Part shown: positions 24,756 to 24,838 of the stretch, one piece after another | Numbering within the stretch: the first letter of the stretch is position 1 | Layout of the letters: each line of letters begins with the position of its first letter | Source: a virus | Length of the DNA: 30,495 bases | Direction: 5' to 3' (one strand) | IMG/VR virus record: IMGVR_UViG_3300042890_000882 | Span: 1 to 30,495 of that record | The notes under the pieces: generated by a model | The model's database searches: none | What the model was told of the DNA's origin: nothing | Seen by the model: the letters and a program-made list of their open reading frames with translations, nothing else | Translations under genes and position numbers: made by a program

Positions 24756-24838
24756 TAGTCAGGACAGGATTCGAACCTGTATAACCATTAACGGAATCAT
24801 GACACTTAGGTAGGCTCCACCATTTCCGTCACCTGACT
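24756..24838 (-). ncRNA. tRNA-like element without recognisable anticodon arm
   Basis: Acceptor AGTCAGG pairs perfectly with CCTGACT, and the T-arm ACAGG TTCGAAT CCTGT is perfect; the discriminator is A. The part between, where D and anticodon arms should lie, starts with a D-like GGAAATGGTGGA but folds differently: ACGGAA pairs with TTCCGT, enclosing a hairpin GGTGG/CTACC with a 3-base loop. I find no 5-bp stem with a 7-base loop and anticodon. It is 83 nt, in the class II size range. It could be a degenerate tRNA or a tRNA mimic. Confidence 0.6.

Follow-up and report, generated by a model that had tools for sequence, protein, structure and literature searches.

A tRNA-like gene without an anticodon arm

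Phage tRNA clusters are usually read as codon-supply devices, yet in Bacteroidota phages many of the "tRNAs" of such clusters cannot decode. What such a gene may do instead is the question raised by a tRNA-like (TL) element in the window, by which we mean the whole stretch analysed, a 30.5-kb fragment of an uncultivated virus. We examined this element with ARAGORN, Rfam and an alignment of six homologues. It is 83 nt long and lies on the minus strand (24756 to 24838; the original prediction gave no strand), where it reads AGTCAGG TGACGGAAATGGTGGAGCCTACCTAAGTGTCATGATTCCGTTAATGGTTAT ACAGG TTCGAAT CCTGT CCTGACT A.

The outer parts of the element are those of a canonical tRNA. The 5′ strand of the acceptor stem, AGTCAGG (24832 to 24838), pairs at 7/7 positions with the 3′ strand, CCTGACT (24757 to 24763), followed by A73 (24756) and C74 (24755), and an eighth pair, U-1:A73, is possible. 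The T-arm ACAGG-TTCGAAT-CCTGT (24764 to 24780) has a 5/5 paired stem and a loop of the TTCRANN type. The perfect 7-bp acceptor and 5-bp T-arm first noticed in the sequence were thus confirmed. The region from U8 to G19, TGACGGAAATGGT (24819 to 24831), resembles the 5′ half of a tRNA-Leu D-arm, with A14, A15, G18 and G19, but the 3′ partner of the D-stem, GACGC, which is typical of the class described below, is missing; no D-stem is found in the family of the window element, yet 271/319 class elements have one among the matches listed. The interior or payload module GGAGCCTACCTAAGTGTCATGATTCCGTTAATGGTTAT (24781 to 24818), whose last base is U48, replaces the anticodon and variable arms.

ARAGORN made no call for the element, though it called tRNA-Met and tRNA-Leu(UAA) on the same strand. 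The Rfam tRNA model scored it at 30.1 bits (gathering score 29) in a permissive search only, and did not list it with fast filters. In the Rfam alignment the acceptor and T-arm align, whereas pairing of the D-stem is disrupted and no anticodon arm is aligned; a canonical arm (5 bp, 7-nt loop, U33, R37) is absent from the window element. These analyses agree with the original prediction that the anticodon arm is missing. As no part of the element is able to serve as an anticodon, the suggestion, made in that prediction, of an unusual functional tRNA is unlikely to hold for decoding. Both predicted inner helices are present in the sequence; RNAfold forms ACGGAA/TTCCGT (approximately 8 bp) but not GGTGG/CTACC. 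The RNAfold z-score of the element is -2.3 to -2.8, and an inner helix in a single sequence is weak evidence by itself.

The element belongs to a minus-strand array ordered as block A (24962 to 24840), the TL element, block B (24755 to 24633), a canonical tRNA-Leu(UAA) (24632 to 24545; ARAGORN; 50.3 bits with Rfam), a small gene, and a canonical tRNA-Met(CAU) of the same cluster (24232 to 24158; ARAGORN; 74.1 bits), the tRNA-Leu being co-directional with the element. Among phages, the region is best matched by Leptolyngbya phage Lbo-JY46, whose tRNA-Leu shows 89% identity to the tRNA-Leu(UAA). Block A, which lies on the 5′ side of the element, was aligned with its counterparts in the syntenic contigs L004 and L005 and also occurs in L347. 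It is noncoding, with a covarying helix (CAGAG/CTCTG to GAAGAA/TTCTTC) and a hairpin, GTGGG-GAAAGA-CCCAC. Rfam searches with the flanking blocks gave nothing above chance level (RAGATH-36, with a gathering score of 70, reached 15.5 bits), and no family was found for block B. In L349 (which is L004), a second TL element follows block B where the window and L005 carry tRNA-Leu(UAA), indicating that a TL element and a genuine tRNA-Leu gene can take one another's place.

Compensatory changes in the outer stems

We selected relatives of the window element (L114, L310, L311, L312 and L315) by interior patterns alone, ignoring the scaffold. A run of 33 to 35 nt of the interior is identical in L310 and L312, and the interior is near-identical in the other three. 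The shell around it differs: L312 has the acceptor CATCGGG/CCCGATG and the T-stem GCAGG/CCTGC, and L315 the acceptor GGCAAGG/CCTTGCC. The original prediction named two refuting outcomes, an anticodon arm identified by a covariance model and random loss of acceptor pairing among homologues, and neither was observed. Acceptor pairing is 7/7 in all six homologues; five of the seven acceptor pairs change on both sides, always in a compensated manner, as do two of the five T-stem pairs. Altogether, 9 pairs are changed on both sides in the six-sequence alignment, a level of covariation matched by 0/500 shuffles.

The absence of an anticodon arm and the low tRNA score might suggest a degenerate tRNA pseudogene. 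The compensated changes in acceptor and T-stem, together with the conserved interior and hundreds of relatives, refute this reading, to which we give practically no weight; they also back the earlier argument that perfect outer stems speak against simple decay.

The inner fold is less firmly established. In the ACGGAA/TTCCGT helix, four pairs (C-G, G-C, G-C and A-U) and U9-A51 are invariant among the six homologues, another pair changes from G.U to G-C, and L312 has lost one further pair. The helix is thus conserved but mostly invariant, and the data are consistent with it rather than proving it. GGUG/UACC is invariant across the six sequences, and positions 23-24 and 38-39 co-switch between GA/UC and UG/CA. 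As the usual D-stem partner is absent from this family, its inner fold is unlike that of a tRNA; the alternative helix would use the nucleotides of U8-A14, and the elbow of the window family may therefore be non-canonical.

A large class sharing a tRNA scaffold

The class was defined by two pattern scans of IMG/VR, using a 24-nt acceptor/T-arm string and the leucine-type 5′ part, respectively, plus neighbours; prevalence is given as a lower bound. The string occurs in at least 120 IMG/VR stretches, some of which hold up to 6 copies. Among the matches listed, C74 closes almost every copy and the leucine-type TAGTCAGGTGGCGGAATTGGTAGACGC opens many of them, with a hypervariable stretch in between; the scan using the 5′ part agreed with the first. 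An acceptor and T-arm scanner identified at least 369 unique elements with the scaffold AGTCAGG...CCTGACT, A73 and C74. Because this scanner requires acceptor pairing, pairing statistics were taken only from sets chosen without that criterion: among the matches listed, the acceptor was 7/7 paired in 141/154 elements (the total being a lower bound) anchored by D-arm and T-arm only.

For comparison we used the remaining tRNA-like genes of these loci (n = 503 among the matches listed). An anticodon arm was found in 39/369 class elements (10.6%), compared with 6.2% of shuffled interiors and 422/503 (84%) of the other tRNA genes of the same contigs, among the matches listed. ARAGORN gives odd anticodons to some class members, which might point to working tRNAs with an unrecognised or expanded anticodon arm. 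The near-chance frequency of the arm, interior lengths that range from 23 to 112 nt among the matches listed, and the lack of an anticodon common to families largely refute that explanation, which we consider highly improbable. Features of the shell, A73 included, are about as frequent in the class as in the canonical tRNAs that accompany it on these contigs, among the matches listed: U8 (96% versus 94%), the A14..G18G19 pattern (93% versus 99%) and C74 (99% versus 100%), with an A-rich trailer common to both groups. Of the 255 elements considered among the matches listed, 227 have A-U and 8 have G-C as the Levitt pair 15-48, the commonest exceptions being A-A (10) and A-C (9). Compensatory changes preserve this pair as well as both outer helices, acceptor and T, and the tRNA shell is under selection.

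Among the matches listed, 99% of the elements have the same orientation as the closest tRNA or TL element, from which the median distance is 137 nt. The elements are intergenic: 14% overlap an ORF, compared with 68% of random positions. The variable, tRNA-shaped and phage-borne nature of the elements is what a decoy for tRNA-cutting defence nucleases, as proposed originally, might look like. However, the anticodon loop read by anticodon nucleases is exactly the missing part, and this role appears improbable.

The string was found in six bacterial-genome contigs, four of them in MAGs labelled Flavobacterium, Sediminibacterium, Saprospiraceae and Chitinophagaceae, all Bacteroidota; a search for host rRNA in the carrier MAGs found none. 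No match spanning both arms was detected in 50,697 phage records, just short tRNA-arm matches, and a search for plasmid homes of class elements gave no match. A family of TL elements of approximately 150 nt (L003:1859-2014; L019, L094, L116, L127 and L297) has the acceptor TGTCAGG/CCTGACA or variants of it, a variable D-loop hairpin and a conserved core, CGTCTCGTGGGCGC..GGGTTGACCACAAAGCCGGC.

Structured and exchanged interiors

A second family, chosen by its interior in 32 contigs, gave an alignment of 23 sequences with an H-type pseudoknot and 98.6% of cells paired. Ten pairs are changed on both sides (0/500 shuffles); two of these belong to the pseudoknot helices, and most of the ten to the acceptor, D and T stems. 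The acceptor, which was not used in the search, is paired in 25/25 unique members, including AGTGAGG/CCTCACT, TTTAGGG/CCCTGAA and AGTAGAG/CTCTATT. Taken over all class elements, the predicted folding of interiors is a little more stable than that of shuffled sequences, with a mean z of -0.60 compared with -0.13 for flanking DNA among the matches listed, pseudoknots being uncounted in these values.

The gene-content relatives L004 and L005 have the TL scaffold and both neighbouring blocks, A and B, in common with the window, but their interiors are unrelated. A scan for block B, the constant neighbour RNA directly 3′ of the TL element, identified eight contigs, including these two, which together with the window make nine loci. 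Across them, mean identity is 91% for block B (with a minimum of 83%), 81% for the scaffold and 39% for the interiors, which equals the shuffled value, and 0/36 pairs of interiors are related. RNAalifold predicted 28 pairs in block B from the nine contigs, 7 of them changed on both sides; compensations include GGCC/GGCC to GGGG/CCCC and CTGTA/TACAG to CTCGT/ACGAG. The interiors recur elsewhere: that of the window element in L310 and L312, that of L346 in L092, and that of L343 in L247 and L254. L344 and L327 share a D-loop insert but differ in their interiors, indicating that the insert is a second module. Among the matches listed, about half of the elements (198/369) have no detectable relative in the sample. 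As judged from these alignments, the interiors are many unrelated, partly pseudoknotted modules that form conserved RNA families.

In all nine contigs, block B follows C74 of the TL element without a gap and extends up to the tRNA or tRNA-like unit that comes next. Together with the location of the elements between genes or other RNAs on one strand, this arrangement would suit transcript punctuation as in mitochondria, in which the shells are cut sites that part neighbouring RNAs or mRNAs and what lies inside matters little. We consider it rather unlikely, since interiors are conserved over at least 30 nt between unrelated neighbourhoods and one family has a covarying pseudoknot of its own, both needless for pure cut sites. 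That interiors move between places might also reflect an element acting as DNA, perhaps a recombination hot spot or an attachment site, with ends that merely resemble a tRNA. The tertiary covariation of 15-48, C74 and the single-strand orientation are RNA features, however, and a reverse transcriptase is lacking from 16 carrier records, making this proposal very doubtful.

Other ideas about the interiors were examined and rejected. Diversification by a DGR was one, no RVT_1 gene being present in the 16 carrier records, which may be fragments. Against the E. coli 16S, 23S and 5S rRNAs, on both strands, interiors matched no better than shuffles, as would be needed for rRNA mimicry or antisense, and a likeness of the interior to 23S H69-H71 spotted by eye was not significant. 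Neither similarity nor antisense matches to the surrounding phage DNA were found, and none of the nearby genes had an antisense match; no target emerged from these comparisons.

Leucine-identity determinants in the shell

The determinants of leucine identity in E. coli are A14, A15-U48, G18G19, A20a and A73, and editing requires the anticodon arm (PMC9976931, a review). The full set is found in 61% of the class compared with 24% of canonical tRNAs, among the matches listed, making recognition by the synthetase plausible. Moreover, E. coli tRNA-Leu variants that lack the anticodon and variable arms are still aminoacylated; these minimal variants retain the same parts as TL elements, namely A73, A15-U48, G18G19, A20a and the contacts between the D and T loops (PMC9976931). 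They are laboratory constructs studied in vitro, whereas TL elements are natural and have a payload added.

The TL element might thus be a leucylated non-decoding RNA, in which the shell is kept for charging by leucyl-tRNA synthetase and the RNA either distracts that enzyme as a decoy or donates leucine to reactions other than translation. This possibility is a minority reading, though the strongest of the alternatives. The window element has A73, A15, U48 and GG but carries G rather than A at 20a, A73 is found in 289/319 class elements (91%; approximately 9% are without it) among the matches listed, and L312 has G73; given this G at 20a and the G73 of L312, leucylation need not be general. 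The leucine set may also be mere inheritance from a tRNA-Leu ancestor, and leucylation leaves the conserved and diverse interiors unexplained.

A probable tRNA-scaffolded small RNA with an exchangeable payload

We propose that the element is probably a phage-encoded, tRNA-scaffolded small RNA that carries an exchangeable payload inside a shell derived from leucine tRNA. The shell would comprise the acceptor stem, T-arm, D-loop/T-loop elbow and A73, and a structured payload would have replaced the anticodon and variable arms; of this proposal, the scaffold-plus-payload architecture is well supported by the comparisons. The units may be excised from array transcripts by the tRNA maturation machinery of the host (RNase P, 3′ processing and CCA addition), with the elbow conferring stability on them once excised, and many units may be leucylated. 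Turnover affects the payload and spares the shell, which leads us to prefer a role in which it would bind and block fast-changing host factors, most plausibly related to defence or translation; this role is a guess based only on turnover, and we hold it tentatively.

A broader conjecture, equally tentative, is that Bacteroidota phages carry banks of effector RNAs on a leucine-tRNA chassis, processed by the host and perhaps leucylated, with targets set by horizontally exchanged payload modules (and separate D-loop modules), and that the species 1 RNA of phage T4 is a distant example. If so, these banks would be the RNA counterpart of anti-defence gene islands. The non-decoding "tRNAs" of clusters do resemble a modular platform for small RNAs; the examples run to hundreds, and covariation supports their structures. 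All the evidence is comparative, and most contigs are fragments of uncultivated origin. The scaffold model predicts ends at +1 and 73, dependence on RNase P, leucylation without an anticodon, and payload swaps.

Comparison with known RNAs

In our searches of full-text literature, which left preprints and most subscription papers outside their coverage so that earlier work is possible, no description of arrays of anticodon-less tRNA-like elements was found. TL elements thus apparently form an undescribed class, and tRNA finders overlook their genes or assign false anticodons to them. The array organisation, leucine shell and payload exchange are without precedent as far as the literature covered shows.

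tRNA-like ends have a precedent in T4 rnaC, which carries the annotation "small, stable RNA; species 1 RNA", closes the tRNA cluster of T4, and whose function is still termed unknown in recent papers (PMC9697503, PMC3014915, PMC12685909). Like TL elements, rnaC has tRNA-like 5′ and 3′ ends with a T-arm (CCGGG-TTCGAAT-CCCGG), no anticodon arm, and a location beside phage tRNA genes; the adjoining 3′ strand pairs with the 5′ end at 5/7 positions (CGATTCG/CGTTTCG). In Enterobacter and Edwardsiella phages, A3-U70 of rnaC is replaced by G3-C70, and two of these phages also have CCTGG/CCAGG instead of CCGGG/CCCGG as the T-stem. This is the same kind of tRNA-like end with compensatory changes. Unlike the TL class, rnaC has two U.U acceptor mismatches and no leucine-type D-arm, and it is a single RNA per phage that is mostly conserved inside, with no array of exchangeable payloads. 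Only generic tRNA arms are common to both, which does not indicate common descent. In the rnaC homologue of Edwardsiella phage PEi20 (L353; NC_028683), the ends and T-arm are conserved and much of the 5′ half of the interior is different. The TL class offers a route into the 50-year-old puzzle of species 1 RNA, which dates from the 1970s and whose function could be tested in E. coli by comparison.

tmRNA (ssrA) also combines a tRNA-like acceptor and T-arm with the absence of an anticodon, internal pseudoknots and, in its own case, RNase P processing. TL elements differ in being much shorter, in having leucine- rather than alanine-type identity and in their unrelated interiors. ARAGORN made no tmRNA call for the window or any class element examined, Rfam shows tRNA only, and neither the reading frame of a tag peptide nor the tmRNA architecture was found in the TL element. 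In the viral contig L005 (3163-3572), ARAGORN called a tmRNA with the tag DEMSTMTFDDLMAFVGADEATFA, possibly falsely.

The mascRNA and menRNA and the tRNA-like structures of plant viruses are tRNA-shaped RNAs that serve processing and not decoding. They occur outside phages and, unlike TL elements, have no exchangeable interior modules. The "tRNA-Undet" genes of Tenacibaculum phage pT24, a cultured Bacteroidota phage, resemble TL elements as tRNA genes without a readable anticodon; they differ by another scaffold and by a short hairpin in the place of the anticodon. Two such genes, nearly identical to each other, are present in pT24 (L313; LC168164, 192032-192477), with the hairpin GGGTATATTACCC at that place, and further noncoding sequence lies between the tRNAs.
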